Shown here piece after piece: positions 1,493 to 64,000 of a DNA stretch of 64,000 nt. Position 1 is the first letter of the stretch. Every line of letters starts with the position of its first letter. A program made the position numbers and the translations under genes. The notes under the pieces are model-generated. The model made no database searches. It was not told the origin of the DNA and saw only the letters and a program-made list of their open reading frames with translations. This DNA is from Limnomonas spitsbergensis (Eukaryota > Chlorophyta > Chlorophyceae > Chlamydomonadales). The stretch is taken from positions 62,001 through 126,000 of the forward strand of contig JAYJMM010000113.1 in assembly GCA_037349105.1 (NCBI GenBank), read 5' to 3'.

Positions 1493-4400
1493 ATGGCAGA
1501 CATCAATCCACCGAAACGCAAGGCTATAGCTGAAAACGCTGCCACCAGCAAGAAGCATGCATCTGAGGCATCCAAAGCCCTACAAACAGCCCCAGCAGCA
1601 GAAGCAGCAGGTGCAGCCCCTGCTGCAGGCAGCGGCCGCGGCTGCCTGGTCAACCCCAAGCGCGTGCAGCCGATCAAGTCGGGTGCCCCCGCTCCTGGCC
1701 CTGTCATATATTGGATGAGCCGAGACCAGCGGGTGGCCGACAACTGGGCACTGCTCCATGCTGCTGAGTCAGCGGCGCAGACGGGCGCCCCCGTGGCCGT
1801 GGCGTTCAACCTGGTGAGGGGCCTGCTTGATAACAAAGACATGTCTAATAAGTCATTATGCACATCAGAGATGCCCATGAGCTCTGACCAGAGAAGGACA
1901 CCCATTAGAAAATTTGAACCTGGTGAGAGACCTCCTCAGTAATTCATAATATGCTCATTATGCGCGGGTTAGTGGAGCCTCTCATTCGTGGCCTCTAACC
2001 TGGCCAAAAGCCTGTGCGGTCTCGGTCAGCTCAGAAGTTTGTGTACAGGACACGTCAGCACCTTTGTTGGGATTTACTTATAACTGATCCAATGGTGTAG
2101 CCTCCGATCCACAAAGGCCACTGCTAGTTCCTCAATGCTCCAATCAGGTTCTAACTGGAAAGGCAGCTCCCTACTGTAGGGTTCAAAGATTGTCATCGCA
2201 GAGTCATGGCAATTATTAGAGTCTAGCTGTTTGAAGGCTCCATTTTTGCAGCTGAGATTTTGACCTGCACCTACAGCGCTGTTATTGGCGGCGTCGACAC
2301 CTCCTCCCATGAGCCTTTTTTCTTATGAAATGGTCGGGCTATGTAACCGGGGAGAGCATAGGAAGTTGTGAAATGCCGCAAATGCTTTTCAGTTCGCTTT
2401 AAAATGTGTAATTTGGACGGTGTGTGGAGTTGCTGTTTGGTACTGAAATTATTCTACCTGAGGCACGCGATGATAAGGCGGTAGGGGGATAAAGGATCGC
2501 TGGCCCGCGTGCATGCGCGCCAGCGACGCAGATTCGTAGTCTCATACCCTGGATCGTCTCAGCAAAGCCTGTTTAGTTTTGAGATGAATTAAGCCGCGGT
2601 GGGTGCGGATTTGGGGGCGCTGAGGACCGAGCCCCCCAGGTGGTGCATCAGTGGAATTCTTCAATGCAAATGCTTATCATGTCGTTATAGTATAGCCGAT
2701 TGGCCGGGTCACTTGCCCCCAATAACTTAATCAGAAGGAAAAAATCCAAGCAAACAATAAAATAAATCTGTGGAAGATTCCAGAATCGATTTGCCAGCTG
2801 CTGATGCCCTGCTACCGTGCAACACCGCCTGGCCCTGCAGCTGCCTCCTCTGGTGCTGCTACTAAGAGGGAAAGCTTATACAAGTTGAGACTCGAATGGG
2901 GCATATTCCTACCAGAGGTGTATCCTTCCTTGCTTTCTCTAAAAGGAATCATATTTTGTAAACCTTGAACCCTTGAAACCTTGAACCCTAAACCCTGAAC
3001 CCTAGAGGGTTGGCTCCTTAGTAGATCCCCTCTCTTCCCTCTTCCACTTTCGTTCCCAAAGCCAGCCCCCTGCTCCTATACCCCTCATGACAGGTTCCAG
3101 CTTTTCTGGGGGACGGTCCTTCACCCCTCTCAGCCAGCCCCTTGCTCCTTCACCCCTCTTGACAGGTCCCGGCCTTCCTGGGGGCTGGTGCTCGTCACTG
3201 GGGCTTCATGCTGAGAGGCCTGAGGGAGCTGCAGGAGGCACTGCGTACTGCTGGCATCCCATTCTTTCTACTCAAGGTGTGAAAAGTATGAATGAACAGA
3301 GGGGGAGCGTAGACTCCGTAGAGCCACTAGGGCTTAATAATGAGAGGCCTGGGGGAGGTGCAGGGGGCACTGGCAGCTGCAGCCTGCAGGCATGTCGATT
3401 TTTCTGCTAAGGGCAGGCAGGACTGGGGTAGGCAGGCAGAACCTTGGCCCTTCCCTGGCTGAAGGTATACGATTGTGCCCACTGAAGTTTGCTTTGTGTT
3501 GCTTTTAGGGATGCCTTGTTTGCAGCCCACAGTATGAACAGAAGTATGAAAGTATTCAAGCCGTGGGACCGCAGCCAGGGAGGGGGGTCGTTAAGTGCGG
3601 GCGGTGGTGGTGGTGGGCGTGAAGTAGGGGGGGGGGAGGGGGGCATTAACCAGGTTTCTCATTCTCTTGGTAAGACCGCCGTGGGATATGAATGTCTGCG
3701 TTCAATTCGCTTTGGGGCTAGTCATTGAAAATGTGCGACAAGCAGTCACTGGGCTTGCCTGGGTCATGTGATGCATATAAGAAGAAAGGCATGTGCTGAA
3801 TCCCCCCCCCCCTCCGAATGCAGGGCGACCCCGCCGAAACCATCCCTCGCCTCGTCACAGACTCCGGAGCCGGCTTGCTGGTCACGGATTACTCCCCGCT
3901 GAGGCTAGGCCGGCAGTGGAGAACGCAGGTGCGTGCATGCAAGCCTAACCCTGAACTCTCTACCCTAAAACCTTCACCGTGAAGGAGGCAGGCGTGTGCG
4001 CATTCAAGCCTAAACCATAAGACCTACACAGTGGAGGACGCAGGTGTGTGTGCGTGCTAGCCCAATCCCTTCACCCTAAAACCCTATATCTGGACAATGA
4101 GGGATGCAGTTGTGTATGTGCATGCAAGCCTAAAACCTCAACCCTAACCTGAAACCTAAAACCTAGACAGTGGAGGACGCAGATGTGTGCGGTGGAGTTG
4201 AATTGTGATGCATCTGAATGGTAGCTGTAGCGCTGAACAGTGGACGGGTGCAGTGCGTGTTGGGAGTGCAGTGGACATGGGTACGGTGCGTGTTGGGAGT
4301 ACAGGGTTGAGCTACCGGGGATGCTCTCAGGAGGTGAGAGTAGCACCTGGCGCTGTGGCAGGAGGTATTGATTTTGTAACGAGGGGGACGGGCCTAAACC

Positions 4401-7400
4401 CTGGATTGGGACGGGCCTTAACCCTCGAGGGGACGGGTCTTAACCCTTGGGGGGCACGGGCCTAAACCCTATCCATGGACCTGCTTCCGCTCGCTGCTTC
4501 CCCGACCCCAACTCAACCCCTCCAGGACCCTGCTCCGTTCTTTTGCTTCTGTGATCCCAACTCGCTCCTTCCACTGCCTTGCTTCATCCTCTTGCTGCCG
4601 TGTCTGCGTAGGTGGCTGCCCGTCTGCCGGAAAGCGTCCCCTTCCATGAGGTGGATGCTCACAACGTCGTGCCAGTATGGTGTGCCAGCGACAAGCGGGA
4701 GGTGTGTGGAAGTGTGGGACTCAGCACTCAGTCGTGGGATGAGAGCTACAATCATTAGCAAGATGGCTGGGTGGGAGGTGTGTGGAAGTGTGGGACTCCA
4801 CACTCAGTAGTGGGATGAGAGCTACACACATTAGTAAGACGGGTGGGTGGGAGGTGGGTGGAAGTGTGGGACTCCACACTCAGTAGTGGGATGAGAGCTA
4901 CGATCATTAGCAAGATGGCTGGGTGGGAGGTGTGTGGAAGTGTGGAACTCCACACTCAGTGGTGGGATGAGAGCTACATACATTAGTAAGACGGGTGGGT
5001 GGGAGGTGCGAGAACAGGTTGGTGCGCGTACGCTTCGACCACGTATCCAAAAGCAGCGGGGGGATTCCAACGTGAACGTCTCCTACATGAATTATCCAAG
5101 CCCTCAGCCCTAAACCCTTAAGTCCCGGTGCCTAAGCCCTGTACCGCCTGAACCCATGCTTCAGATTGGTGCGCGTACCCTGCGGCCACGCATCCACAAG
5201 CAGCTGCCGGAGTTCCTACGTGAATTCCCGTCTCTGCCGACCGGTTTGGCTGCATGGCCCCAGCAGGGCCTGATACAGCCTGAGCCGGTAGACTGGGACG
5301 CCCTCATAGCAGAAGTCCTGCAGAGGTAAGGGGAGTGGGGGGGGAGTGGTCAGAGGGGGAGGGGGGGAGGGGAAGTCCTGCAGAGGTAAGGGAAGTGGGG
5401 GGAGTGGTCAGAGGGGGGAGGGGGGGAGGGTGAAGTGCTGCAGAGGTAAGGGGGGGGGGTATGGGGGGAGTGGGAAGTGCTGCAGAGGTAAGGGGGGAGG
5501 GGGAGTCAAAGGGGGGGGAAGGGGGGGGCTTTTTGTTTAGCAGGGAGTTTAGGTGGCTGGGATTGACTGCAAATAATCGAAATGAACGGCACCTCAGGCC
5601 TCTTGTCACCTGTGTAGTAGCTGAGATACCCTAAATCAATATGTGGTTCCCCCTACCCGGTACTCCTTTATAGGTAGCGGCGTGCCTGAGATGCACTGGA
5701 TTCTATCGGGAGGGGCTGCAGCCCGCTTGGAAGTGGATGGCACCTCAAACTTCCTGTCACCTGTGTTGTAGCTGACACAGCCTTAAAATAAGTGTGGTCC
5801 TCCCCATCCTTTATGGGTAGCGGCGTGCCTGAGATGCACTGGATTCTGCCGGGAGGGGCTGCAGGCTTTCGTGGATGGCACCTCAGGCCTCTTGCCACCT
5901 GTGTTGCTGCTGAGACGGCCTTGAGCCCTAATAAACCTGTGCCCCGCCCCCCTCCTTCAGGGGTAGCAGCGTGCCTGAGGTGCACTGGATCCTGCCAGGG
6001 GAGGCTGCAGCCCGTGCTGCGCTGGATGGCCCCTCCGGCTTCTTGTCTCCAGCACGGCTGTCTCTCTACAAAACAAAGAGGAATGACCCGGCAGCTGTGG
6101 TGAGTTCTTAAGGGTCCAGGGTTGAGGTGGAAGGTCCTAAGCGCCTTTTGGCTCGTCCCTAAATATCACCGAGAGGAGCGAATCAAAGACCCTGCTGCCC
6201 AAGTGGAGTCCGAACCCTAAACCCTAAACCCTGCTGCCTGAGTGGATTTTTGTTCCAGCGACGATGTGTCCATGTCGAAAGCCTGTCTTGAACGTGAGGG
6301 GTGTGAGGACTCTTAACCTGTGGGGCCCCAGAGGCCTTGGATGCAGGGCCCAAAGCTGCAATTGTGTTGGAAGTCCAGTAGAGCATCAGAGTTTAATCTT
6401 GGGAGAGGTGCCCGCAAATCGGTTTGGGCGCCAAATTAACTGGGGTAGTCACAAAGCAATCAGCCCCCCCGCCCTATTTATTTATTTTAGTGTGCATCAG
6501 ATACAGTTCAGCTACAACCCGGCCTACAGCTGGCAGGTGTAAGTGCAGCAAGCCTTATTGCATGGGCCACCAGCCGCACGCTGTTCAACAGTCTGTTCAT
6601 TGGGGTCCCAATCAGCCTGATGGTGATTACCCAGCAGCATGCGTAAGGTGGTCTGGTGCGTGCTGAAACGAACACTGCCGCCCCCCCCCCCCCGGGCTTG
6701 TTACCAGCACACAAACCCTGGCCAGCTGGCTGGGGCTGAGTCATCTTGAGACATCACTCCAGTGGTTGGTTTCAGAGCACACAGTACCACCTTGGGCAAG
6801 CCGCTGAACACTCTATTGCTTAGGAAGGAGGGGGGTGGGACTGCTGGGCTGATTGGGACTGATTTTATGGTTTAAGGTAAATGTGTAACCAGCCACTCTT
6901 TGTTGGGGTCTAGAAGGTTTGAATCTGAGCCATGCACTCTGTTGCTCAGAAAATAGGAAGGGGGGGGCTGCTGGGCTGACTGGGACTGACCCTGTATCAG
7001 CCCACGGTCTTTCTTTTGTCGACTCAAAGACGATTATCGACAGGCTGCCCCTCAACCGCCCTAGGCCCGATTGGGATCAAACCTGGCCCCACTTTCAGCT
7101 GTCGGTCCAAGCAGCATGGCGGGTCACACCTGATGCAGTCTGTCGGAGGTCGTAGTGTAGCTGACAGGTAGCTGAGTCACTAAAAAGGCAACGCTGCCTG
7201 TGCCCGGTGGCTCCAGCGGCAGGTCCAGCTGCAGCAGGCCCCCACTGGCCATAGGCGGAGACGTAGCTGAATTGTATTGTAATTGTAGCGGAATTGTAGC
7301 GGACTTACAGCTTGATTACCCTAGGACTGAGAGGACGTGGACAAGAGCAGCATGGGAATACGTGGGAAGGACCCTTGTCTCTGCTTCATTGCAACAGCAT

Positions 7401-10400
7401 CAGAAAGTCTCAATCGAAAAATATATATACTCCTCAATCCGCATTTGGTTTCACCACTTAACGAAAATTCGCTGCATGGTCTGTCCTTTTGTGGATCGCA
7501 CTTGAGCTAAATTTCAGCTTTGTCCTGGTCTGCGGTCAGGGGATCCTGGTCCAGCATGCCTTGCTGCTGGTCCCAAACTTTGGTCCCTATCGGCCCCCAT
7601 TACCTACCCGGCAGCCCTCCAGAAGGTTGCCTAGTGCACTCTTCAAGGAACCCTGTAGCTGAGATTCCGTCCTCTCTACCATGTCTTAATCCTAGATCCG
7701 GCAGGGTTAATGGTTTCACCCTGAACCCATAACCCTAGACAATAGTGCCGAGAACCCTCCTGCCCCTGTGTCGCATGTTCCCTGGCAGGGCCAGAGTGAG
7801 CTGTCGCCATACCTGCACTGAGGCCAGCAGGGTTAACGGTTTAATCCTAAACCCTGGGCAACACTGTCGAGAACCCTCCTGCCCCTGTGTCGCATGTTCC
7901 TTGGCAGGGCCAAAGTGAGCTGTCGCCATACCTCCACTATGGCCAGCTAGCGCCGCAGAGGGCAGCCCTGGAGGCGGCAAAACATCGATCCAAGTGAGCC
8001 TTTCTGAGCTGGGTGGCATGTTGGTTTTCTGCTTCTAAGTAGCTGAATTATGGGTTGAGGGTTCAGGATGACGGGAACTTTTCTCACAATTTAAACCTAG
8101 GGGTCGATTTGAGAGGGGGCGAATGACCTCCAGAATTTGATTTAAATGGTAAAAAGCTGATACCGGTATTCAGGATTTCATTTCAAGGTTATAGATGTCC
8201 CTATTTTGATCAAAACTAGAACAGGTCTGCAGAATTTGATTTGAATTGTGATTTATCTTCTGGTTCTGAGTGGATCGGTTACGCTTTCTCTGGTTTGAAT
8301 TTAATTGAACGGTTGCAGGTACAAGGATGCTGTGGAGAGCTTCCTGGAGGAGCTGGTGGTACGCAAGGAGCTGTCCGACAATTTCTGTCACTGTAAGACT
8401 GCTGAAAGCAGAAAAACTTTTCCGTTTTATTATAGCGGTTCTGACATGTCCACTTTTGAGGTTTCGGATTAAAAATCTAAAAAATCGTATGTCGACATCA
8501 ACATACCAAGTCGACATAACACAAGTGTGCGGAAGATCACAGTTGCTGCATATTTCCTGCGCTATGGTACTGCATATCGATGCTGTCCACTGGTCAGTTG
8601 ATGTTGTCGAGAAGCAGGAATCAAATGAATGCAGCACTCAATCTGAAGGCGATCTTGCTTATGTTCAAGTTATGTCGACTTGGTATGTCAACATGACATG
8701 TTTTAGGTTTCAATCTGAAAGCTGGAAAGTGCAAACATAAGTCAGAACCGCTATAATTCCGTTTTTAATTCATTTACCTCAATCGGTTCTCCTAATAACT
8801 GTAATAAGATTTGATGATCACAAGTTCATCATGTCGGAAATGCTTTTAGTAGGTAGGTCAGCTGGGGGGTGCTATCGGACAACTTCTGCCACAGGTTGCT
8901 GACTTCAACCCTTCACACAATTTGAGAGCACTGTCCATTTGCACTGATACTTATTTTCCTGATAATATGAGTAATATAGCATTCGAATTACCTGGATCAG
9001 TTAATCGCGAAGAATAATAGGAGTTTGTTTTACAAATGAATCACTGCAAGATATATTTGCTTTGCGTGCTGTTTCAGATGCTCCTGATGCTTACGACAAC
9101 CTGGACTGCGCCGCCGGGTGGGCGAGAGAGTCGCTTGAGAAACACATCGCGGACAAGCGGGAGCACCTTTACACCAAGTGGGTTTAGGGTTTAGTAGGGA
9201 GCACCTTTACACCAAGTGGGTTTAGGGTTTAGTAGGGAGCACCTTTACACCAAGTGGGTTTAGGGTTTAGTAGGGAGCACCTTTACACCAAGTGGGTTTA
9301 GGGTTTAGTAGGGAGCACCTTTACACCAAGTGGGTTTAGGGTTTAGTAGGGAGCACCTTTACACCAAGTGGGTTTAGGGTTTAGTAGGGAGCACCTTTAC
9401 ACCAAGTGGGTTTAGGGTTTAGTAGGGAGCACCTTTACACCAAGTGGGTTTAGGGTTTAGTAGGGAGCACCTTAACACCAAGTGGGTTTAGGGTTTAGTA
9501 GGGAGCACCTTTACACCAAGTGGGTTTAGGGTTTAGTAGGGAGCACCTTTACACCAAGTGGGTTTAGGGTTTAGTAGGGAGCACATTTACACCAAGTGGG
9601 TTTAGGGTTTAGTAGGGAGCACCTTTACACCAAGTGGGTTTAGGGTTTAGGGCTTAGTAGGGAGCACCTTTACATCGAGTGGGTTTAGGGTTTAGTAGGG
9701 AGCACCTTTACACCAAGTGGGTTTAAGGTTAAGGGTTTAGTAGGGAGCACCTTAACACCAAGTGGGTTTAGGGTTTAGTAGGGAGCACCTTTACACCAAG
9801 TGGGTTTAAGGTTAAGGGTTTAGTAGGGAGCACCTTTACACCAAGTGGGTTTAGGGTTTAGTAGGGAGCACCTTTACACCAAGTGGGTTTAAGGTTAAGG
9901 GTTTAGTAGGGAGCACCTTAACACCAAGTGGGTTTAGGGTTTAGTAGGGAGCACCTTTACACCAAGTGGGTTTAGGGTTTAGGGCTTAGTAGGGAGCACC
10001 TTTACACCAAGTGGGTTTAGGGTTTAGTAGGGAGCACCTTTACAACAAGTGGGTTTAAGGTTAAGGGTTTAGTAGGGAGCACCTTAACACCAAGTGGGTT
10101 TAGGGTTTAGTAGGGAGCACCTTTACACCAAGTGGGTTTAAGGTTAAGGGTTTAGTAGGGAGCACCTTAACACCAAGTGGGTTTAGGGTTTAGTAGGGAG
10201 CACCTTTACACCAAGTGGGTTTAAGGTTAAGGGTTTAGTAGGGAGCACCTTTACACCAAGTGGGTTTAGGGTTTCATAGGGAGCGCCTTAACACCAAGTG
10301 GGTTTAAGGTTTAGGGTTAAGGGTTTAGTAGGAAGCGTCTGAACGTCAAGAGTGTTTAGTGTTAAGTAGGGAGCACCTTAGCACCTAGTTGATTTAGTGG

Positions 10401-13400
10401 TTAGGGGTTAAGGGTTTAGTAGGGAGCACCTTTACACCGAGTACACCCAGTGGGTTGGTGAACACCGCATCTGCTCTCCTCATCATTCGAATGCGGGAAC
10501 GGATCTCAAGCGGGAGAGGTGGAGGGGGGGGTAACGGGGTGGTGAAGGGAGAGGTACAGGGTGTCGCTGCACCTGCACCTGCTCATGGGGGACTCGGAAT
10601 ATATGTGATGTCGCGACAATTTATCATACCGGCACTTGTTAAGGGCATGTAAAAATGTTTAGGGCTCCTCAGCCCTAAACATTTAGCCCTAAACCTTAAG
10701 CACTCAGCCCTGAACATTTAGCCCTAAACCTTAAGCACTCAGCCCTAAGCACTCAGCCCTAAACACTTCACACTAACCCTAAACACTTCACACTAAACCA
10801 CCCATCCCCCTAACTGTGCTCTCCCGCCCCTGACGTGCCGCGCCCCAACAAGAAAGCATCCCTCTTTCTTGCTCTGCTCCAAGCCAGTGGAGAGAGGCGG
10901 CATGAGAGCAGTCCACCCTCCTGCTGTACTGCATACCGTAGTTTGATCAAGTACATAATAAATCAGGCAGTAACGGTGCTCAAATGTTCAGTATGTTTGC
11001 GACGCACTTTGTCGTATGCCCTCTTCTAGGCCCTCGGGGTTGCAATTGCAGGCCATCGATTGTGCCTGTCTCTATTAACCATGCCATGCTATGCCCATGC
11101 CATGCCGGACCTCTTTCTTAAGTGGCCCACGCCCATGCCCATGCCCATGCCGGACCTCTTTTTCAAGTGGCCCAATCCCTCCTCCCCTCTCACCCCCAGA
11201 CAGCAGTTTGAGGAGGGCAAGACACACGACGAGCTGTGGAATGCAGCTCAGTTGCAGATGGTCCATCTGGGAAAGATGCATGGCTTCATGCGCATGTATT
11301 GGGCCAAGAAGATACTGGAGTGGACCCCGGGGCCAGTGGAGGCAATAGAGGTGTGCGAGATGGGAGGTGGAGGGGCCTAGATGGTGGAGGCGATAGAGGT
11401 GTTAGGGAGTAGGAAGGGGCAGTGGAGGCAATAGAGGTGTGCAAGATGGGAGGTGGAGGGGCCTAGATGGTGGAGATGCAGGGAGGGGTGGGAGGGGCCA
11501 GTTAAGGTGATAGAGGTCGAGGGGGCAGTTGAGGTGATTGAGGTGATGGGGAGGTGTGGGGGCCATGACGGTGGATGCGATAGGAGTGTGCTTAAGGATA
11601 GGGAGTAGAGGGGGGCAGTGGAGGCAATATAGGTGATTGGGAGTAGGAGGGGCCAGTGGGGGCAGTAGAGGTGTGCAAGCTGATAGGGAGGTGGAGGGGC
11701 CTTGATGGTGGAGGCGATAGAAGTGTAAGGGAGTAGGATGGGGCCAGTGGAGGCAATAGAGGTGATTGGGAGTAGGAGGGGCCAGTGGGGGCAGTAGAGG
11801 TGTGCAAGCTGATAGGGAGGTGGAGGGGCCTTGATGGTGGAGGCGATAGAAGTGTTAGGGAGTAGGATGGGGCCAGTGGAGGCAATAGAGGTGATTGGGA
11901 GCAGGAGGGGCCAGTGGGGGCAGTAGAGGTGTGCAAGCTGATAGGGAGGTGGAGGGGCCTTGATGGTGGAGGCGATAGAAGTGTAAGGGAGTAGGATGGG
12001 GCCAGTGGAGGCAATAGAGGTGATTGGGAGCAGGAGGGGCCAGTGGGGGCAGTAGAGGTGTGCAAGCTGATAGGGAGGTGGAGGGGCCTTGATGGTGGAG
12101 GCGATAGAAGTGTAAGGGAGTAGGATGGGGCCAGTGGAGGCAATAGAGGTGATTGGGAGCAGGAGGGGCCAGTGGGGGCAGTAGAGGTGTGCAAGCTGAT
12201 AGGGAGGTGGAGGGGCCTTGATGGTGGAGGCGATAGAAGTGTAAGGGAGTAGGATGGGGCCAGTGGAGGCAATAGAGGTGATTGGGAGCAGGAGGGGCCA
12301 GTGGGGGCAGTAGAGGTGTGCAAGCTGATAGGGAGGTGGAGGGGCCTTGATGGTGTAGGCGATAGAAGTGTAAGGGAGTAGGATGGGGCCAGTGGAGGCA
12401 ATAGAGGTGATTGGGAGCAGGAGGGGCCAGTGGGGGCAGTAGAGGTGTGCAAGCTGATAGGGAGGTGGAGGGGCCTTGATGGTGGAGGCGATAGAAGTGT
12501 AAGGGAGTAGGATGGGGCCAGTGGAGGCAATAGAGGTGATTGGGAGCAGGAGGGGCCAGTGGGGGCAGTAGAGGTGTGCAAGCTGATAGGGAGGTGGAGG
12601 GGCCTTGATGGTGGAGGCGATAGAAGTGTAAGGGAGTAGGATGGGGCCAGTTAAGGCAAAAACCAAGGCCTTGTTTCATCAGTTTTTATACAGGCACCCA
12701 CCTAAAGCCTTAAACTGAAACCTGCGCACTCTGTATCTGATCGGCATCTTCCTGAACCCTGAACCCTCCAAATGGGTCCTGCTTATTTCATCCGCGTCAG
12801 ATGGGCATCTAACTGGAGCCATATAAGGTTATATAAATCGCACCCTTGTTCGTAGCGGGCACCATTCTTCCATTACCTTCCTTAAAAGCTGCAGTACGAC
12901 AAATATGCTTATTCCTTCAATTTACTAAACGTGTGTCAGGTCGGTATCTTCATGACTCAAAACAAATTGATCCTGCTTGCTCCATCCGCGTCCAGATTGG
13001 CGTCTACCTGGAGCCATTAAAACTCTTATATTACTTACCGGTGTATACTGATTCCATCTGTTTCGTCGATGTGTGTCAGATTGGCATCTACCTGAACGAC
13101 AAGTTCTCCCTGGATGGCCGGGATCCCAGTGGCTACGTGGGAATTATGTGGAGCATGGTCGGGGTACATGACATGGTGCGTGACAGGTCTAAACCCTAAA
13201 CCCTAAACCCTAACCCAGTGGCTATGTCGGCATCATGTGGAGCATGGCCGGGGTGCATGACATGGTGCGTGAGGGACACAGAACGTCTTGGTAAATGAGA
13301 CACGTCTTAACTGATGTCTCAAAACATGTTGGGATACATGTTGCAACATAGGCACAGACATAGGCACACCATTTGTAGGTAAATGAGTGACACGTCTGAA

Positions 13401-14151: not shown

Positions 14152-14450
14152 GAGCAGGGAGAGGGCCGCCTAGGAAGCGCCGCTGGGCACTAAGCCGGTG
14201 TCGCTGGCTACGGTTGCAATTGCCAAGGCCCTCTTTGAGACGGAAGGCACAAAATCAGTGTGTGTGGAGGGCGGCTTGGGAAGTGCTGCTGGACACTAAG
14301 CTGGTATCCTTGTCGCGGCAGCAGTCAAGGCCCTCTTTGAGACGAAAGGCACGGAATGAGAGCAGGGAGAGGGCCGCCTGGGAGAGGGCCGCCGGGCACC
14401 AAGCTCGTGGCCTTAGCCGTGGCTGCCAGATCACTTGTCAAGGTCAAAGG
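14100..14450 (+). repeat. Tandem copies of the photolyase last-exon tail in the 3' flank
   Basis: The end of the gene (gtcacaggccgcggcagcag, then aaggccctctttaagactaagggcacaaaatga and gagcagggagagggc) is followed by about three diverged copies, near 14220-14260, 14325-14370 and 14380-14440. They retain caaggccctctttgagacg-type cores and gggagagggccgcc. They lie after the stop and are presumably 3' UTR or intergenic. This extends the boundary-duplication pattern to the terminal exon. Confidence 0.8.
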
Positions 14451-15312: not shown

Positions 15313-17240
15313 GCCTAGAGAATTAGGGGGGAGACAGGAAATTTGGCAAAGTTTTGAGATGATTCTCTCTTTTCATCATACACTGAAAGATAAAAGAACC
15401 AAATTTCTTCCAGAACACATATGCAGAATCCGCTGCATTTAGTTTGCCCCACACTCCATTTGCGCACCGTTTCATGGCCTCATCCTCGTCCTCTAGGACA
15501 TTATGGAAAGTAAGGTTGAACTGAAAACGAAGGTCTGTATAGAACGAGCAGTAAAACATGTGAAGCTCATCCTCCCGACATTTAAGATTGCAACATCTAC
15601 AATTCCTCTCGCTACGAGGCACACAAGGTTTCTCAAAGCGCCCCGTCTCAACATTCAGCCAATGCGACCCCATCCGATACCGGGCTACAGCGAAAATGAT
15701 ATAAGGCTTACTCAAATTGTACCAGAAAGTCTCCTTCACATCACGCTTAATTTGGAACCACTTAGAGAATGTAAACAATTTGAGCCCCGAGCGTTCTGAG
15801 TCAGGAGTAGCACGGACTAACAGGGCCGTACGTGGCATGTCCCTGGAAATTTTGGAAAGCCACTGATCCCTAGCTGAATTCACAATGACCTCAATATCCA
15901 AAGAGGTATTGGCTGAAGCAGTCAATAAATCAATACCCAGAGTCATCAATATCGTAGACAGAAAACCAGCCCAACAAAGTGAAGTGCCAGCCTTCGCCAA
16001 ATCACAACTTTCCTGCATAGCCATTTTCACAAGGTCATCGTCAGACCTCAGATTAATTATATTCCAGAAACTCAGGGTCTGCTGAAAAAGACTTAAGATA
16101 AGGGGTTCACGGTGCAGTTCACTCATGAGAACATACTCGGCCACAGACTTGCGAAGACCCAGACACTGCCAAAGGAAACCCTTGTGAATTACCTCCAAAT
16201 CTCTAGAGAAACCAGTATCTGTCAAGCCGACTCCTTTCGCAAGGAGACCTGGTCCCCCAATTTCACACCCATAAAACAGAATAGGCTTCACCAAAGAGTA
16301 AAAAATAAAATATGACATTTAATGTGAACATTGTTTATGTCAAGCTCATGACATCTCAGGACCATGGCATACAAAGCTGCCATCTATTCCCTTGTTGACA
16401 CAACGTCTACCTGCTCCCTTCATACCTTCTGCCTCATCAAATAACGTACCCACGTAGATGAAAAAGGGCTTAATATCAAGAAAGCTTCCGTCATAAGACA
16501 GAGATGCCAAACGACGGCAATATTTCTGGTTAAAAACAACTGCTTCAGATTTTTTTTATTGACTGTCAAGGCATTGTGGCGACACAAAAATATGGAGAGC
16601 ATCAAGAAGTTTTTGCAGATCATCCGGCGATTCAGCGAATAGCACCAAATCATCAGCATAAAGTAAAACTCCGACCAAAGCATGTGAAAGACGGGCGCCA
16701 ATATCAGGGCACTCACTTGCGACAAACTTCTCGAAACGGTCGATAAACAGGCCAAACAATAAAGGGGACAGCGGGTCTCCTTGTTTAACACCCATAAAGG
16801 AGGAGAAATTATCTCCCAGTTTACCACCAACCCGTACACGGATTTTTACATCCTGATACATCTCCTTTAAATTTTCTAAAATCCGGCCGTGCACGCCCAT
16901 GCTCTGTAAACTCCGCCACAGTAAATCTCTGTCAATGCAGTCATATGCCTTCCTAAATTCAATGAAAGCAGCAAAAACCGTTTTTTTTCTCCGAATGGTA
17001 TTTTCAATAATGTGGTTAAGAATGAAAGCATTATCAGGTGTTCCCCGTCCATGCCGAAAACCTGCCTGGCCATCGGTTCTGAAACCCTGACTTTCTGCCC
17101 AAGAATCAAGACGCTACAATAACACGAGGGAATATTGGATAGGGCAGTTCCAACGGCAATACCCCTATAATCGTCTTTGATTGCAGGACTGCCCTTTGGC
17201 TTGGGTACCGGAACGAGTGCTCCGATGCCCCACTCCTTAG
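15313..17240 (-). mobile_element. 5'-truncated, frameshifted non-LTR retrotransposon (LINE) with reverse transcriptase
   Basis: Reading the minus strand from 17240 down gives pieces of one ORF2 in shifting frames. A GFRHGRGTPDNAF block and FRKAYDCIDRDLLW come first (about 16950-17080). Then FMGVKQGDPLSPLLFGLFIDRF and LLYADDLVLFAES, the catalytic YADD box, follow (16560-16900). A 331-residue C-terminal open frame (15323-16318) ends with a C-x2-C...ED-x2-H-x4-C cluster like the zinc-binding domain found after reverse transcriptase in many LINEs. Frame breaks near 16556 and 16320-16440 and the missing endonuclease show that it is dead and 5'-truncated. It lies between the photolyase and TLC genes. 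Confidence 0.9.
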
Positions 17241-19725: not shown

Positions 19726-19735
19726 TGCCCCCTGC

Positions 19736-52362: not shown

Positions 52363-52710
52363 GTGGGTATCTGCAGATCATATGGTGACTCGTGACATAA
52401 ACACGCAACGTGAGAGTGAAGAATATTGTTACCCATTCGTGAATTCCGGTACTGTTTAATGCAGAACTCTGTAACCGCTAACTTGGATTTGTTTTGCAGA
52501 CCTTTGGGTATGAATTAATTCCTTATTTACTGGTTATGAGACTATCCTTCAAGCAAATTGCGTACACAACATCTTGATTTCAGACAGACACTTGGTGTCG
52601 AAGATCAATTATAGCAATCAGTTTGCAGGGACATGCCAAGAATTATACTCCAGACAGGTCCATGCTTTGTAGGGGCATGCCCAGGATGAAGTCCAGACAG
52701 GCCCATGCTT

Positions 52711-53968: not shown

Positions 53969-56772
53969 CCGTGATTGCCCCCCGGGGTCCCTAGCCTCTG
54001 CCTGAGATCCGCCGCCGTCATGGTTGAGACTAAAACGCACTTGCTTTGCCCGAGGCAGGCTGGTTGAATGCTCCGGAGCCTGCTGTACCGTGGAGCCCGC
54101 GGAGCATCCACCTGCTTGTACTGCAGAGCTTCCACCCAGTTGTACCACTGCAGGATCGTCACAACAGTAGGCATCAGAGCAGCCAGCAGGAGGAGCAGTG
54201 GCAGCCGAGGCATCAGCACCTGAAGGTGGGCGGCGGAACGCCGATATGTGCACCCACGCCTCCCCTGCCTCGATAGCAGCAGCAGTAGAAGCAGCGGCAG
54301 TAGCAGAAGTAGAGGCAAAAGCAGCAGCAGCAGTAGCAGTAACAGAAGTAGAGGCAGCGGCAGTAGTAGTAGCAGAAGTATAAGCAGAAGCAGCAGTAGC
54401 TTTCGCCCTCTTGTCGGTGGCTGGCTGACTCTCCCTGCGTCCCCCTCCGAAGGGATGTCTGATGGTGGCGGTGGTGGAGACTGCTCCTGCTTCCTGCTGC
54501 ATCCGCCCTTGCTGCCCGCCACCAGATGAGATGATGGCTGTAGCCGCAGGCTGCCTCTCTTCACAGGCGGACACTGGCTGCTTCTCTGCACCCGCTGCCT
54601 CGGGCTGCCTCTCTTCACTAGCTGCCGCGTGCCGGGCCGTCAAGGAGCTCAGCACCTGAGCGATGCTGAAGCTCGTCTTAACAGGGGAGGACACGGTGCC
54701 GCCTCCAACTCCGCGGAAAGGGTCACCGCCGAATCCGCCACCCAGATGATCGCCATTGGAGCTGCTGAGGCTTGCATCAATCCCGCGAGGAGGGGCGCCG
54801 TCAGGGTCGCTGGAGCGGCAGTCCTTGCTGCCAGGATCGGCGCTGGAGCAGCAACCTTTGCTGTCGGGAGGGGCGCAGTCAGGGCCGTGGGGACCGCAGC
54901 CAAGGGGGTGGACTCCGCGGGCATGGCCTTTGTTTTCCGCAGAGCCCGTCAATGCGCTGCTAGTGGGCTGAGACGCCTCATGTAGCCGCACCGCCTCCAG
55001 CTGCTGCTGCATAAGGGCCTGCCAGCTTTTCCCGTCCCCATCCCCATCATGGGAGGAGGCAGCAGGCCGGGCCTCTACCCAAGCACCCGCCTGCGCACCC
55101 GCTGCACAGATGGACGACCCGGTCCCCTCCTGCCCCTCGGCTGCAGCATGGTCTCCCCCTCGGGCAGGTACTGCAGGGTTGGGAGCATGAGCGGGGCCAG
55201 GGAGGAGGGTGCTCCCGCAGCCATCAGCGCTATAAGGGCCGTCCCAATCCAGCAGCTGCCTCCTCAGCTGCCTGATGCCATCGACAGGTCCGGGCTGGCC
55301 AGCATCGGCAAGCCCTGGTCGGCCAGGGGCTGAGGGTGCCAGGCTATCGGACCTGCCATCGGACCTAGGCCGCCGCATATCATCATGAAGCGCCTCGCCA
55401 GCACCGCTATCGGTCAAGAGGCAAGTTGCTGCCGTTGACACGTCTGCGAAGCCACCCGACAGCTTGTTTGCCTTAGATGCTGTCAAAGGGGCAGCGGACG
55501 TCAGGCAAGGCGCCGCCGCCGCCGTTGTTGCAAGCGCTGAATCAGCGGTTGTGCCCGAGGTTGGGGCAAGGATCGCCGCAGTAGAAACAGCAGCATCCTC
55601 AACAACCTGCATCGAGATAGAGATGGGTGGACGTAATGCTTCTGCAATGAGGGAGGGGAAGTGGGGGACGGTACGCAATGCGTGGGGGGCGGTAAATCGA
55701 TTGCCTTTTGCCCCCCGCCCCCATCGCGACCTACACCGAGAAGAGAGTCGTCAAGTGCTGCCTCAGGTGGGTGGCGGTAGGCAATGGGGGAGGGAAAGTA
55801 AATGGGGAGGGTAAATGTGCTCAAGGGGAGGTGGGGGAAAAACCTCCTCAGCCATGATAATCCCCAAAGGGAGCGGAGGGGCAAAAGGGGAGTCCACGGA
55901 TGACCTGGGGGTGAGTGACAAGCAGAGGGAGTGGGCAGCGTAGAGAGGGAATTTTCCATTTGACGGCTAGGGTGCGCTAAACCACTCAGACATCTGGCGC
56001 CAGCTGCCTAAGGGGCTTGGCACCCTGTTACCTCTACAAGCCTGCACTCCTCCATACCCTTCGGCGTACCCACAGGGAACCTCGCTGATGGGCATCCGGG
56101 TGAAGAGTCTGGCATGCCCAGCACTGCTGTTTATTCCATTGCATGCGAGACCACCTTCGGTAGTTCTTTGTGTTGTAAACGAATTGTATCTGAAGCACCC
56201 TCACAATACGCAGCGCAGCGTACGCACACCAGAGTTAAACCCTGAGTGCAATCCTGATCCTCTGCGTCTGGCCGCGACGCGTATGAAGCCGCCTGAAATA
56301 CACCGTGAAGCCCCCCGCCCGCCAGTGCTGCCTGGTCTCACCGCTGACCCGTCCAAGACCTGTAGGGCGTCCGGCATGAACTGCAGCACCGCGCTCCTGT
56401 AGCTAGGCGCCAGCAAGCCCCTGGAGAACGGGCAGCCCTCTGCAGACATCTCCTTCAGGTGAATAAGACAGCTGCGTCATAAGTGACAGGGGAGGGATAG
56501 GAGGCAGTGAATGCTTCTCAAGCTAAACAATGGCAGGCCCTGGGTAAACAAAAGGTTGAGGTTTCAGAGTCTGAACCCTATGAGTGTGCCTCGACCATGG
56601 TGGGGGGCCTCAAGCTTTATATGCCTATATTGTCCAGCCGTGGTGTGTCCCTCACACCTGATAGGCGCCATGCAGTCAGCAGACTCGAATCGGTTGTGGG
56701 ACAAGAACAGGCGCTCCAGGCCGGTGGGCAGGGTGCAGGGGCGGACGGTGTCACCAGGGGATGGCCCTCCTT
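53753..56772 (-). CDS. Leucine-rich-repeat protein, C-terminal exons with long disordered tail (5' end outside window)
   Basis: Three exons visible on the minus strand. Exon A 56658-56772 encodes an LRR (LPTGLERLFLSHNRFES). Exon B 56342-56473 encodes HLKEMSAEGCPFSRGL, then YRSAVLQFMPDALQVLDGSA, the typical closing LRR cap with LDG. Exon C 53753-55606 joins B in phase 0 (SA then VVEDAAV) and adds 617 residues of Ala/Ser/Gly/Thr-rich low complexity, ending in a short ordered tail (VRGKVLEHLDRDGKAEAFER). Proteins of this shape (LRR block plus disordered tail) are often cytoskeletal or ciliary adaptors; that role is inference. The A donor (AG then gtgtgagg) leaves phase 2, whereas the B acceptors I see are phase 0, so a small exon or an indel is missing between A and B. 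Earlier LRR exons must lie beyond the 91-bp array. Confidence 0.72.
55607..56341. other. LRR-gene intron between exons B and C
   Basis: GC-rich with [17 protein letters not shown] runs (55640-55830). No repeats of the flanking exons seen. A short protein-like frame on the minus strand at about 56045-56095 is not needed. Confidence 0.45.
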
Positions 56773-59700
56773 CTGTGGGTGCTTATGGAGGCAGGAAAGT
56801 AGCATTATCATTCAGTGGGCAGGGTGCAGGGGCGGATGTTGTGACCAGGGGATGGCCCTCCTTCTGTGGGTGCATATGGAGACAGGCAAGTAGCATTATC
56901 ATTCAGTGGGCAGGGTGCAGGGGCGGATGTTGTGACCAGGGGACGGTTCTCCTTCTGTGGGTGCATATGGAGGCAGGCAAGTAGCATTATCATTCAGTGG
57001 GCAGGGTGCAGGGGCGGATGTTGTGACCAGGGGATGGCCCTCCTTCTGTGGGTGCATATGGAGGTAGGCAAATAGCATTATCATTCAGAGGGAAGAGTGC
57101 AGGGGCGGATGTTGTGACCAGGGGATGACCCTCCTTCTGTGGGTGCATATGGAGACAGGCAAGTAGCATTATCATTCAGTGGGCAGGGTGCAGGTGCGGA
57201 TGTTGTGACCAGGGGATGGCCCTCCTTCTGTGGGTGCATATGGAGGCAGGCAAGTAGCATTATCATTCAGAGAGCAGGGTGCAGGGGCGGATGTTGTGAC
57301 CAGGGGGTGGCCCTCCTTCTGTGGGTGCATATGGAGACAGGCAAGTAGCATTATCATTCAGAGGGCAGGGTGCAGGGGCGGATGTTGTGACCAGGGGATG
57401 GCCCTCCTTCTGTGGGTGCATATGGAGACAGGCAAGTAGCATTATCATTCAGAGAGCAGGGTGCAGGGGCGGATGTTGTGACCAGGGGATGGCCCTCCTT
57501 CTGTGGGTGCATATGGAGGCAGGCAAGTAGCATTATCATTCAGTGGGCAGGGTGCAGGGGCGGATGTTGTGACCAGGGGATGGCCCTCCTTCTGTGGGTG
57601 CATATGGAGGCAGGCAAGTAGCATTATCATTCAGTGGACAGGGTGCAGGGGCGAATGTTGTGACCAGGGGATGGCCCTCCTTCTGTGGGTGCATATGGAG
57701 GCAGGCAAGTAGCATTATCATTCAGTGGACAGGGTGCAGGGGCGGATGTTGTGACCAGGGGATGGCCCTCCTTCTGTGGGTGCATATGGAGGCAGGCAAG
57801 TAGCATTATCATTCAGTGGGCAGGGTGCATGGGCGGATGTTGTGACCAGGGGATGGCCCTCCTTCTGTGGGTGCATATGGAGACAGGCAAGTAGCATTAT
57901 CATTCAGTGGGCAGGGTGCAGGGGCGGATGTTGTGACCAGGGGATGGCCCTCCTTCTGTGGGTGCATATGGAGACAGGCAAGTAGCATTATTATTCAGTG
58001 GACAGGGTGCAGGGGCGAATGTTGTGACCAGGGGATGGCCCTCCTTCTGTGGGTGCATATGGAGACAGGCAAGTGGCATTATCATTCAGTGGGCAGGGTG
58101 CAGGGGCGGATGTTGTGACCAGGGGATGGCCCTCCTTCTGTGGGTGCATATGGAGACAGGCAAGTAGCATTATCATTCAGTGGGCAGGGTGCAGGGGCGG
58201 ATGTTGTGACCAGGGGATGGCCCTCCTTCTGTGGGTGCATATGGAGGCAGGCAAGTAGCATTATCATTCAGTGGACAGGGTGCAGGGGCGGATGTTGTGA
58301 CCAGGGGATGGCCCTCCTTCTGTGGGTGCATATGGAGACAGGCAAGTAGCATTATCATTCAGTGGGCAGGGTGCAGGGGCGGATGTTGTGACCAGGGGAT
58401 GGCCCTCCTTCTGTGGGTGCATATGGAGACAGGCAAGTAGCATTATCATTCAGTGGGCAGGGTGCAGGGGCGGATGTTGTGACCAGGGGATGGCCCTCCT
58501 TCTGTGGGTGCATATGGAGACAGGCAAGTGGCATTATCATTCAGTGGGCAGGGTGCAGGGGCGGATGTTGTGACCAGGGGATGGCCCTCCTTCTGTGGGT
58601 GCATATGGAGGCAGGCAAGTAGCATTATCATTCAGTGGGCAGGGTGCAGGGGCGGATGTTGTGACCAAGGGATGGCCCTCCTTCTGTGGGTGCATATGGA
58701 GACAGGCAAGTAGCATTATCATTCAGTGGGCAGGGTGCATGGGCGGATGTTGTGACCAGGGGATGGCCCTCCTTCTGTGGGTGCATATGGAGACAGGCAA
58801 GTAGCATTATTATTCAGTGGGCAGGGTGCAGGGGCGGATGTTGTGACCAGGGGATGGCCCTCCTTCTGTGGGTGCATATGGAGACAGGCAAGTAGCATTA
58901 TCATTCAGTGGGCAGGGTGCAGGGGCGGATGTTGTGACCAGGGGATGGCCCTCCTTCTGTGGGTGCATATGGAGGCAGGCAAGTAGCATTATCATTCAGT
59001 GGGCAGGGTGCAGGGGCGGATGTTGTGACCAGGGGATGGCCCTCCTTCTGTGGGTGCATATGGAGACAGGCAAGTAGCATTATCATTCAGAGAGCAGGGT
59101 GCAGGGGCGGATGTTGTGACCAGGGGATGGCCCTCCTTCTGTGGGTGCATATGGAGACAGGCAAGTGGCATTATCATTCAGTGGGCAGGGTGCAGGGGCG
59201 GATGTTGTGACCAGGGGATGGCCCTCCTTCTGTGGGTGCATATGGAGACAGGCAAGTAGCATTATCATTCAGAGAGCAGGGTGCAGGGGCGGATGTTGTG
59301 ACCAGGGGATGGCCCTCCTTCTGTGGGTGCATATGGAGGCAGGCAAGTAGCATTATCATTCAGAGAGCAGGGTGCAGGGGCGGATGTTGTGACCAGGGGA
59401 TGGCCCTCCTTCTGTGGGTGCATATGGAGACAGGCAAGTAGCATTATCATTCAGTGGGCAGGGTGCAGGGGCGGATGTTGTGACCAGGGGATGGCCCTCC
59501 TTCTGTGGGTGCATATGGAGACAGGCAAGTAGCATTATCATTCAGTGGGCAGGGTGCAGGGGCGGATGTTGTGACCAAGGGATGGCCCTCCTTCTGTGGG
59601 TGCATATGGAGACAGGCCAGTGGCATTATCATTCAGTGGGCAGGGTGCAGGGGCGGATGTTGTGACCAGGGGATGGCCCTCCTTCTGTGGGTGCATATGG

Positions 59701-62700
59701 AGACAGGCAAGTAGCATTATTATTCAGTGGACAGGGTGCAGGGGCGAATGTTGTGACCAGGGGTTGGCCCTCCTTCTGTGGGTGCATATGGAGGCAGGAA
59801 AGTAGCATTATCATTCAGTGGACAGGGTGCAGGGGCGGATGTTGTGACCAGGGGATGGCCCTCCTTCTGTGGGTGCATATGGAGGCAGGCAAGTAGCATT
59901 ATCATTCAGTGGGCAGGGTGCAGGGGCGGATGTTGTGACCAGGGGATGGCCCTCCTTCTGTGGGTGCATATGGAGACAGGCAAGTAGCATTATCATTCAG
60001 TGGGCACGGTGCAGGGGCGGATGTTGTGACCAGGGGATGGCCCTCCTTCTGTGGGTGCATATGGAGGCAGGCAAGTAGCATTATCATTCAGTGGGCAGGG
60101 TGCAGGGGCGGATGTTGTGACCAGGGGATGGCCCTCCTTCTGTGGGTGCATATGGAGACAGGCAAGTAGCATTATCATTCAGTGGACAGGGTGCAGGGGC
60201 GGATGTTGTGACCAGGGGATGGCCCTCCTTTTGTAGGTGCATATGGAGACAGGCAAGTAGCATTATCATTCAGTGGACAGGGTGCAGGGGCGGATGTTGT
60301 GACCAGGGGATGGCCCTCCTTTTGTGGGTGCATATGGAGACAGGCAAGTAGCATTATCATTCAGAGAGCAGGGTGCAGGGGCGGATGTTGTGACCAGGGG
60401 ATGGCCCTCCTTCTGTGGGTGCATATGGAGGCAGGCAAGTAGCATTATCATTCAGAGAGCAGGGTGCAGGGGCGGATGTTGTGACCAGGGGATGGCCCTC
60501 CTTCTGTGGGTGCATATGGAGGCAGGCAAGTAGCATTATCATTCAGTGGACAGGGTGCAGGGGCGGATGTTGTGACCAGGGGATGGCCCTCCTTCTGTGG
60601 GTGCATATGGAGACAGGCAAGTAGCATTATCATTCAGTGGGCAGGGTGCAGGGGCGGATGTTGTGACCAGGGGATGGCCCTCCTTCTGTGGGTGCATATG
60701 GAGACAGGCAAGTAGCATTATCATTCAGTGGGCAGGGTGCAGGGGCGGATGTTGTGACCAGGGGATGGCCCTCCTTCTGTGGGTGCATATGGAGACAGGC
60801 AAGTGGCATTATCATTCAGTGGGCAGGGTGCAGGGGCGGATGTTGTGACCAGGGGATGGCCCTCCTTCTGTGGGTGCATATGGAGACAGGCAAGTAGCAT
60901 TATCATTCAGTGGGCAGGGTGCAGGGGCGGATGTTGTGACCAGGGGATGGCCCTCCTTCTGTGGGTGCATATGGAGACAGGCAAGTGGCATTATCATTCA
61001 GTGGGCAGGGTGCAGGGGCGGATGTTGTGACCAGGGGATGGCCCTCCTTCTGTGGGTGCATATGGAGGCAGGCAAGTAGCATTATCATTCAGTGGGCAGG
61101 GTGCAGGGGCGGATGTTGTGACCAGGGGATGGCCCTCCTTTTGTGGGTGCATATGGAGACAGGCAAGTAGCATTATCATTCAGTGGGCAGGGTGCAGGGG
61201 CGGATGTTGTGACCAGGGGATGGCCCTCCTTCTGTGGGTGCATATGGAGACAGGCAAGTAGCATTATCATTCAGTGGGCAGGGTGCAGGGGCGGATGTTG
61301 TGACCAGGGGATGGCCCTCCTTCTGTGGGTGCATATGGAGACAGGCAAGTAGCATTATTATTCAGTGGACAGGGTGCAGGGGCGGATGTTGTGACCAGGG
61401 GATGGCCCTCCTTCTGTGGGTGCATATGGAGACAGGCAAGTGGCATTATCATTCAGTGGGCAGGGTGCAGGGGCGGATGTTGTGACCAGGGGATGGCCCT
61501 CCTTCTGTGGGTGCATATGGAGACAGGCAAGTAGCATTATCATTCAGAGAGCAGGGTGCAGGGGCGGATGTTGTGACCAGGGGATGGCCCTCCTTCTGTG
61601 GGTGCATATGGAGGCAGGCAAGTAGCATTATCATTCAGAGAGCAGGGTGCAGGGGCGGATGTTGTGACCAGGGGATGGCCCTCCTTCTGTGGGTGCATAT
61701 GGAGACAGGCAAGTAGCATTATCATTCAGTGGGCAGGGTGCAGGGGCGGATGTTGTGACCAGGGGATGGCCCTCCTTCTGTGGGTGCATATGGAGACAGG
61801 CAAGTAGCATTATCATTCAGTGGGCAGGGTGCAGGGGCGGATGTTGTGACCAAGGGATGGCCCTCCTTCTGTGGGTGCATATGGAGACAGGCCAGTGGCA
61901 TTATTATTCAGTGGGCACGGTGCAGGGGCGGATGTTGTGACCAGGGGATGGCCCTCCTTCTGTGGGTGCATATGGAGACAGGCAAGTAGCATTATCATTC
62001 AGAGGGCAGGGTGCAGGGGCGGATGTTGTGACCAGGGGATGGCCCTCCTTCTGTGGGTGCATATGGAGACAGGCAAGTAGCATTATCATTCAGAGAGCAG
62101 GGTGCAGGGGCGGATGTTGTGACCAGGGGATGGCCCTCCTTCTGTGGGTGCATATGGAGGCAGGCAAGTAGCATTATCATTCAGTGGGCAGGGTGCAGGG
62201 GCGGATGTTGTGACCAGGGGATGGCCCTCCTTCTGTGGGTGCATATGGAGGCAGGCAAGTAGCATTATCATTCAGTGGACAGGGTGCAGGGGCGAATGTT
62301 GTGACCAGGGGATGGCCCTCCTTCTGTGGGTGCATATGGAGGCAGGCAAGTAGCATTATCATTCAGTGGACAGGGTGCAGGGGCGGATGTTGTGACCAGG
62401 GGATGGCCCTCCTTCTGTGGGTGCATATGGAGGCAGGCAAGTAGCATTATCATTCAGTGGGCAGGGTGCAGGGGCGGATGTTGTGACCAGGGGATGGCCC
62501 TCCTTCTGTGGGTGCATATGGAGACAGGCAAGTAGCATTATCATTCAGTGGGCAGGGTGCAGGGGCGGATGTTGTGACCAGGGGATGGCCCTCCTTCTGT
62601 GGGTGCATATGGAGACAGGCAAGTAGCATTATTATTCAGTGGACAGGGTGCAGGGGCGGATGTTGTGACCAGGGGATGGCCCTCCTTCTGTGGGTGCATA

Positions 62701-64000
62701 TGGAGACAGGCAAGTGGCATTATCATTCAGTGGGCAGGGTGCAGGGGCGGATGTTGTGACCAGGGGATGGCCCTCCTTCTGTGGGTGCATATGGAGACAG
62801 GCAAGTAGCATTATCATTCAGTGGGCAGGGTGCAGGGGCGGATGTTGTGACCAGGGGATGGCCCTCCTTCTGTGGGTGCATATGGAGGCAGGCAAGTAGC
62901 ATTATCATTCAGTGGGCAGGGTGCAGGGGCGGATGTTGTGACCAGGGGATGGCCCTCCTTCTGTGGGTGCATATGGAGACAGGCAAGTAGCATTATCATT
63001 CAGAGAGCAGGGTGCAGGGGCGGATGTTGTGACCAGGGGATGGCCCTCCTTCTGTGGGTGCATATGGAGGCAGGCAAGTAGCATTATCATTCAGAGAGCA
63101 GGGTGCAGGGGCGGATGTTGTGACCAGGGGATGGCCCTCCTTCTGTGGGTGCATATGGAGACAGGCAAGTAGCATTATCATTCAGTGGGCAGGGTGCAGG
63201 GGCGGATGTTGTGACCAGGGGATGGCCCTCCTTCTGTGGGTGCATATGGAGACAGGCAAGTAGCATTATCATTCAGTGGGCAGGGTGCATGGGCGGATGT
63301 TGTGACCAAGGGATGGCCCTCCTTCTGTGGGTGCATATGGAGACAGGCCAGTGGCATTATTATTCAGTGGGCACGGTGCAGGGGCGGATGTTGTGACCAG
63401 GGGATGGCCCTCCTTCTGTGGGTGCATATGGAGACAGGCAAGTAGCATTATCATTCAGAGGGCAGGGTGCAGGGGCGGATGTTGTGACCAGGGGATGGCC
63501 CTCCTTCTGTGGGTGCATATGGAGACAGGCAAGTAGCATTATCATTCAGAGAGCAGGGTGCAGGGGCGGATGTTGTGACCAGGGGATGGCCCTCCTTCTG
63601 TGGGTGCATATGGAGGCAGGCAAGTAGCATTATCATTCAGTGGGCAGGGTGCAGGGGCGGATGTTGTGACCAGGGGATGGCCCTCCTTCTGTGGGTGCAT
63701 ATGGAGGCAGGCAAGTAGCATTATCATTCAGTGGACAGGGTGCAGGGGCGAATGTTGTGACCAGGGGATGGCCCTCCTTCTGTGGGTGCATATGGAGGCA
63801 GGCAAGTAGCATTATCATTCAGTGGACAGGGTGCAGGGGCGGATGTTGTGACCAGGGGATGGCCCTCCTTCTGTGGGTGCATATGGAGGCAGGCAAGTAG
63901 CATTATCATTCAGTGGGCAGGGTGCAGGGGCGGATGTTGTGACCAGGGGATGGCCCTCCTTCTGTGGGTGCATATGGAGACAGGCAAGTAGCATTATCAT
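56720..64000 (-). repeat. 91-bp minisatellite, about 79 copies, built on the LRR exon A acceptor; continues past window
   Basis: The unit recurs every 91 bp from exon A to base 64000. On the minus strand each unit contains the acceptor (tatgcacccacag) and about 53 nt homologous to the start of exon A (aaggagggccatcccctggt, cacaacatcc, gcccctgcaccctgcccac), then about 25 nt of unique spacer. Only the copy joined to exon A lacks the in-frame TGA that follows the homology elsewhere. Variants (gggcag/ggacag/gagcag, agaca/aggca) are ordered in blocks; the variant series beginning near 61507 repeats near 62963, 1456 bp (16 units) later. The many 61-83-codon frames are repeat artefacts, not genes. 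Confidence 0.97.

Follow-up and report, generated by a model that had tools for sequence, protein, structure and literature searches.

Tandem duplication is a well-described source of introns (PMC3443670; PMC4974935), and the passages of these two papers cite the ATP2A1/2 test of Hellsten and co-workers and the internal gene duplications of Gao and Lynch. Here we describe tandem repeats that run across exon edges in the green alga Limnomonas spitsbergensis, in a class II CPD photolyase gene and other genes of one 64,000-bp window (positions 62001-126000 of contig JAYJMM010000113.1, C113 below, in a genome of 260,226,709 bases and 124 contigs) and in an independent sample of chaperonin genes. 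As in intron gain by tandem duplication, insofar as those passages describe it, short stretches carrying splice signals are duplicated inside genes and the new copies become intron. The alga, in contrast, copies existing junctions and lengthens existing introns, and a donor region aligned to the acceptor region of its own intron in 0 of 75 donor-to-next-acceptor intervals, a few of which may hide an unrecognised exon. The tandem-duplicated intron-exon structure of a potato RdRp gene likewise spans exon and intron and passes on splice signals, but there, according to the passages of PMC4974935, a new intron and a piece of exon arose in one gene, whereas in the alga the exon stays single, the copies look silent and many genes take part.

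Minisatellite and variable number tandem repeat (VNTR) arrays in introns are alike in that the alga's repeats, too, are head-to-tail copies of short units, tens to more than 100 bp long, in two to hundreds of copies and in some cases homogeneous; they are unlike in that more than one third of the sampled duplication events have an exon edge inside the unit. Alternatively spliced human introns were reportedly created from tandem arrays, in work by Zhuo and co-workers in PNAS in 2007; these are arrays with splice signals in genes as well, whereas those of the alga extend existing introns and their decoy sites look unused. Introner-type mobile introns differ from the present case, where unrelated genes were found to have no long sequence in common at their edges: in an all-against-all comparison of 36 edge regions of 120 bp, the best 12 of 93 matches at E<1 comprised four long ones (75-115 bp) between the same edge in paralogs, one between the overlapping regions of the two edges of one exon, and seven of at most 25 bp. 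Border-induced selection on intron length, as presented in the passages of PMC9748784, resembles our case in that the conservation of exon borders skews the survival of length changes; it models indels generally, and the phrase tandem duplication is absent from the main text. Applied to the alga, a deletion simulation of this kind reproduces only part of the edge excess reported below.

The introns of six annotated species, Chlamydomonas and relatives, are conspicuously long, and the mechanism driving their length, likely ancient, goes unnamed in the passages of PMC8226300. Among the listed open-licence papers on intronic minisatellites, duplicated splice sites and intron growth by repeats, judged by title and opening lines of the abstract, we found no description of a genome-wide habit of junction-copying duplication. 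Intragenic minisatellites and tandem duplication are themselves already known; what differs here is that existing introns are lengthened by copied junctions. Such duplication is a concrete, countable route for intron growth without protein change, it supplies natural tests of splice-site choice in which dozens to hundreds of near-identical sites stand beside one that is seemingly used, and it may lead gene finders and RNA mapping to misplace exons. We find that the phenomenon is real, recurs in unrelated genes and is moderately edge-enriched in a small unbiased sample; an aiming at splice sites is not supported.

Exon-edge repeats in the photolyase and in a chaperonin sample

The photolyase model joins 12 exons into a single open frame of 547 codons with full-length similarity to class II photolyases, its closest match being in Chlamydomonas eustigma (coverage 100%, identity 70%). 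Alignment to six algal homologs leaves the junctions undisturbed, except for a small gap near the joint of exons 6 and 7, and because open frame and alignment both support them, the exon edges are independent of the repeats. An edge was scored as spanned when an ungapped self-alignment (score of at least 18, lag of at most 1000 bp) showed a duplicated stretch reaching 6 bp or more beyond it in both directions; three block-shuffled photolyase regions gave one segment in total with a score of 18 or more. Nine of the 22 photolyase splice edges are spanned, namely the acceptors of exons 2, 6, 7 and 11 and the donors of exons 3, 5, 9, 10 and 11. Two narrow misses, both counted as junction repeats in the first-pass annotation of the window, fall below this strict criterion: the exon 4 donor array contains just the 5 terminal bp of its exon, and the exon 5 acceptor copy just about 3 intron bases.

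Since the window had been picked as striking, chance was assessed on the Cpn60/TCP1 family, which was fixed before its genes were seen and chosen regardless of repeats. The sample comprises 11 CCT/Cpn60 gene copies (nine independent genes) with 145 edges and 73 duplication events. Edges were taken from profile matches and splice motifs, then from homologs and paralog conservation (a CCT-beta query matches C. eustigma at 93% identity, in an alignment covering 52% of the query); 61 of the 72 profile matches were used, nine on other contigs and two of C61 being left out. Seven junctions whose splice motifs were weak or ambiguous were dropped and one was restored at its corrected place; among the changes to the edge table, the L030 acceptor was corrected, an L033 acceptor was added, 44 edges followed later, and the ambiguous acceptor of L033 cpnB was excluded. 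Overlapping self-alignments were merged into events and counted on collapsed sequence, because raw base coverage mixes births with copy number. Because some old events are common to both members of the paralogous pairs L029/L030 and L033/L034, counts with one copy per pair were also made. Some edges of these pairs are duplicated in one paralog only, so that duplication births must recur.

We find that 26 of the 73 events (36%) span an edge. A simulation in which births are uniform and always tolerated at edges, exons are frozen and introns decay gives 11.0 (standard deviation, SD, 3.3), none of 80 runs reaching 26, and 8.7 (SD 2.7) with deeper decay. Allowing units that lie over both edges of an exon gives 12.2 (SD 3.2), with 26 reached in 0 of 60 runs; the other simulations redrew such units, which possibly lowers their chance share, and allowing them shifts it from 0.153 to 0.157. 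Random placement on the collapsed gene yields 8.2 spanning events when the matched length only is taken as the unit and 15.5 when the full lag is (p=0.0018), the latter being our generous bound. Chance alone yields 15-21% edge-spanning events, because a unit measures about 100 bp and successive exon edges are a few hundred bp apart. The claim made from the window, that splice boundaries are struck more often than random birth would allow, survives in a weaker form (26 events against 11.0-15.5), and what is supported is a 1.7-2.4-fold enrichment relative to uniform birth in a small sample.

When each paralogous pair is represented by a single copy, 53 events remain, of which 19 span an edge (8.1 expected from simulation, 11.0 from lag), and against the generous bound p ranges over four threshold settings from 0.0018 to 0.017 for all 11 copies and from 0.004 to 0.031 for one per pair. 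Likewise, events of at least 0.9 identity show the excess (12/27, p=0.002), which is also present in all seven gene copies with at least three events, the other four of the 11 being almost event-free. The photolyase, a selected case, has 9 of 23 events spanning against 2.5 and 4.2 expected. Other subsets are without significance against the generous bound: identity below 0.9 (14 of 46 against 10.4, p=0.12), identity of at least 0.95 (3 of 8 against 1.7, p=0.21), and the TLC gene of the window, with 1 of 5 against 1.3. The excess over the generous bound grew as the exon table was completed; an earlier table of 100 edges had 14 spanning events against 5.6 (matched length) or 10.9 (lag), and one of 101 edges had 15 of 73 against 8.3 (SD 2.5) in simulation.

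Shape of the excess and fate of the copies

The repeats had been said to centre on splice boundaries, which the counts do not support. On collapsed sequence, spanning events occur at 1.59 times the expected number; for the others the ratio of observed to expected is 0.47 at 0-10 bp from the edge, 1.63 at 10-30, 1.33 at 30-60 and 1.26 at 60-100 bp, and farther out 0.61 at 100-200, 0.56 at 200-400 and 0.80 beyond 400 bp. Duplications thus cluster in exon-proximal DNA over about 100 bp, and the junction lies within this zone and is not clearly its centre. The place of the junction within the unit is variable, the exonic share of the matched copy ranging from 10 to 71 bp (25 pairs), and many diverged pairs match mostly in their exonic part, for example over 63 of 78 and 71 of 81 bp. 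Duplications strike donors about as often as acceptors (12/70 and 14/75 in the chaperonin sample). Most events in that sample miss the edges, and repeat-covered edges (26/145; 14/100 against 0.23 with the first table) lie below the deep-intron coverage of 0.238. Under the earlier edge table, base coverage in that sample was 0.164 over the ten intron bases next to the edge, dropped to 0.125 at 10-30 and then reached 0.19-0.25 at 60-250 and 0.27-0.41 beyond 250 bp. In the photolyase (same table) it hardly changes near the edge, with 0.45 at the edge itself and 0.43-0.53 at 60-250 bp. Duplications inside exons are rare, with an interior coverage of 0.041.

In all 36 edge/event pairs studied (26 CCT/Cpn60, 9 photolyase, 1 TLC) the bulk of the array is intronic, which fits the suggestion, made from the window, that selection confines expansions to places where an intact junction survives. 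Lags are 8-316 bp among the events studied and 11-164 bp in the edge-spanning ones, and they show no reading-frame preference (13, 10 and 13 for remainders 0, 1 and 2). Decoy splice sites decay at about a neutral pace: at 33 divergent edges GT/AG is retained in 0.71 of copies, against 0.68 for the other dinucleotides of the same alignments (p=0.31), with 0.83 against 0.73 at donors and 0.63 against 0.67 at acceptors. Judging from the sequence, the copy joined to the true exon would be the one used and the others would be spliced away, exon definition presumably making the decoys harmless.

Origin of the excess

With somewhat better than even confidence, we read the excess as ordinary local tandem duplication that is tolerated and remembered at exon edges, together with an incompletely explained exon-proximal bias that is partly one of retention. 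Genes of the alga would undergo frequent local tandem duplication, and a duplication straddling an edge would leave an intact exon and junction at its outer end, in the first copy at a donor and in the last at an acceptor. Further copies would fall in the intron and be spliced out, so that events of whatever length would be tolerated and the protein would apparently stay unchanged. The spliceosome would go on using the junction attached to the genuine exon, leaving the surplus splice sites as neutral DNA; selection would hold the exonic copy constant, making edge-spanning duplications recognisable for longer, and some arrays would later expand like any minisatellite. Behind the remaining excess there would be a broad increase in births or in retention across some 100 bp of exon-proximal DNA, which we prefer to a junction-aimed process because the enrichment is a gradient and not a spike.

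Several results weigh against so simple an account. When births are uniform, every duplication is tolerated and exons are frozen, about 15% of events span an edge, far from the share seen. Border-purged deletions bring this to 18-19% at a moderate rate, where genes end at 1.08 of their initial length, and to 24-26% at a heavy one, where they end at 0.85-0.94; another deletion simulation gives 17-27%, all still below 36%. Slow decay alone is not the cause, because high-identity events show the excess too. The GC content of intronic event units is 0.53 against 0.51-0.52 in unique intron of the chaperonin sample, and 0.56 against 0.48-0.50 in the photolyase; on this comparison of GC values, base composition looks too weak a cause in the former, less clearly so in the latter. 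The residual excess may be a true rise in birth near exons, or retention that the deletion model underrates. That retention and not birth is responsible is a possibility we entertain tentatively: large deletions would clear duplications deep in introns and be lethal near exons, a form of border-induced selection that overlaps with the account of tolerated local duplication as one cause of its bias. The gradient reaches about 100 bp as expected under retention, the principle is published as far as the passages of PMC9748784 present it, and simulated deletions lift the spanning share from 15% to 17-27% or 18-26%; the observed share, however, was attained in 1 of 96 and 0 of 128 deletion runs, 2 of those 128 having at least 26 spanning events.

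A process directed at exon edges, in which duplications would be seeded by breaks linked to transcription, R-loops or the spliceosome, or by a polymerase stalling at the junction, seems unlikely to us. It accords with an excess that persists in genes chosen regardless of repeats and at high identity, that appears in every sampled copy with enough events, and that under the earlier edge table is accompanied by a small local rise in coverage (0.16-0.18 within 10 bp of the edge, 0.125 at 10-30 bp). Yet there is no spike at the junction, the nearest 10 bp being depleted and 10-100 bp into the intron enriched as well; matched copies carry differing amounts of exon, the two kinds of splice site are affected to a similar degree despite their different sequence and position, and four gene copies are almost without events. 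It is likewise doubtful that exon edges are genuine hot zones where transcription- or splicing-coupled repair seeds exon-proximal duplications and introns lengthen from the edges inward; if true, this would help explain the unusually long chlamydomonadalean introns. The opposite reading, that there is no enrichment and that, where introns are so dense, units of about 100 bp are bound to cross edges frequently, to be noticed by a reader's eye in a window chosen as striking, draws on the considerable chance share, on a coverage at edges below that of deep intron, on the small excess over the generous bound with the first, incomplete exon table and on the subsets without significance; given that the completed table is significant at four threshold settings, for all copies and for one per pair, we consider it decidedly improbable. 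Intron gain by tandem duplication can hardly be the explanation: tandem duplications with splice signals do occur inside these genes and copies of exon ends do lie inside introns, but the donor-to-acceptor match that defines such gain appeared in none of the intervals compared.

Other repeats and neighbouring sequence

Beyond the photolyase the gene models of the window are weaker, TLC being a readable four-exon frame, TatB and GGCT a frame with a splice motif, and the LRR-like exon a reading of the frame alone. The first-pass annotation had placed splice-edge repeats at 19 named sites (counted there as about 16), which are borne out in part: besides the nine photolyase edges, the TLC exon 3 donor, the TatB donor and the LRR-like acceptor are spanned, the last judged by the extent of its array with four inner copies checked. 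The TLC exon 2 donor, the TLC exon 3 acceptor and two GGCT donors stay below threshold, the nearest array stopping 9 bp short of the GGCT donor at 29464. The terminal photolyase exon tail carries a real repeat, which spans the stop codon rather than a splice site. Features are collected in the table.

Table. Photolyase gene and repeats at or near exon edges; positions are those of the 64,000-bp window.
Feature	Position	Strand	Basis or remark
Class II CPD photolyase gene, 12 exons	1493..14151	+	spliced model and homolog alignment
Photolyase exons 1-6	1493-1813, 3166-3276, 3824-3928, 4612-4701, 5165-5325, 5961-6099	+	
Photolyase exons 7-12	7908-7993, 8319-8392, 9078-9177, 11200-11350, 13080-13175, 13942-14151	+	
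Two copies, lag 72, over exon 2 acceptor	3060..3192	+	self-alignment
Degenerate copies over exon 3 donor	3914..4191	+	self-alignment
76-bp x 4 array, starts 5 bp inside exon 4, crosses donor	4697..5008	+	just under strict criterion
Copy of exon 5 start, match begins about 3 bp before acceptor	5015..5211	+	under strict criterion
Exon 5 donor array	5312..5528	+	
Copies about 140 bp apart over exon 6 acceptor	5579..6050	+	
119-bp x 1.8 over exon 7 acceptor	7724..7947	+	
38-bp array, about 29 copies, over exon 9 donor	9159..10458	+	19 exonic bases per unit
129-bp array, about 8 copies and degenerate ones, over exon 10 donor	11329..12659	+	
Old copies of exon 11 acceptor	12732..13097	+	
Copies of exon 11 end and donor	13125..13526	+	
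Repeats of about 105 bp of terminal exon tail	14041..14426	+	across stop codon, not splice edge
68-bp x 38 array (about 38 copies) over TLC exon 3 donor	20164..22866	-	last exon base 22825; edge spanned
102-bp x 1.9 duplication over donor of TatB-like gene	40855..41046	-	edge 40990; gene by frame and motif only
91-bp array, unit = acceptor and 49 bp of LRR-like exon	56724..64000	-	runs past window; exon by frame reading only

Two homogeneous arrays had been reported. That of 38 copies is confirmed at the TLC exon 3 donor, and the figure of about 79 copies applies to the in-window part of the 91-bp array, which is far larger. It stays in register through the next 15 kb beyond the window, with 244 whole units counted and a mean identity to consensus of 0.983 over the first 180. 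A genome search with the unit matched contig C113 alone, with 75 matches listed at C113:158630-165397, and the array would be about 46.7 kb long if unbroken across 141001-158629, the stretch between the parts examined.

Several intronic arrays contain telomere-like TTTAGGG/CCCTAAA words, and so does the exon 9 donor unit among them (9178-10458; 10668-10799). Rfam and tRNA scans of the window gave no matches. Upstream of the photolyase a minus-strand open frame (84-797) matches the thylakoid formation protein family PF11264 (E 1.5e-14). Downstream, minus-strand open frames at 15323-17256, one of which (16559-17113) matches the reverse transcriptase family PF00078 (E 1.4e-20), are possibly a decayed retroelement.

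In the wider genome, two chaperonin genes, of CCT and Cpn60 type, each occur in two copies on different contigs, with near-identical exon translations and diverged introns, which suggests that the L029/L030 and L033/L034 pairs go back to the duplication of genes or segments, or represent two haplotypes. At two random loci, read-through frames scanned with Pfam on one strand each gave no family in one case and one repeat-type match in the other. Locus L009 (C14:538000-547999) has a higher GC content (0.61), a strong coding signal on both strands and an intronless photolyase frame of 503 codons, and C14 may be a bacterial contaminant contig. Among 20 ten-kb stretches the repeat load is very uneven: local repeats cover more than half of L012, L016, L018, L019 and L024 and are almost absent from other stretches.

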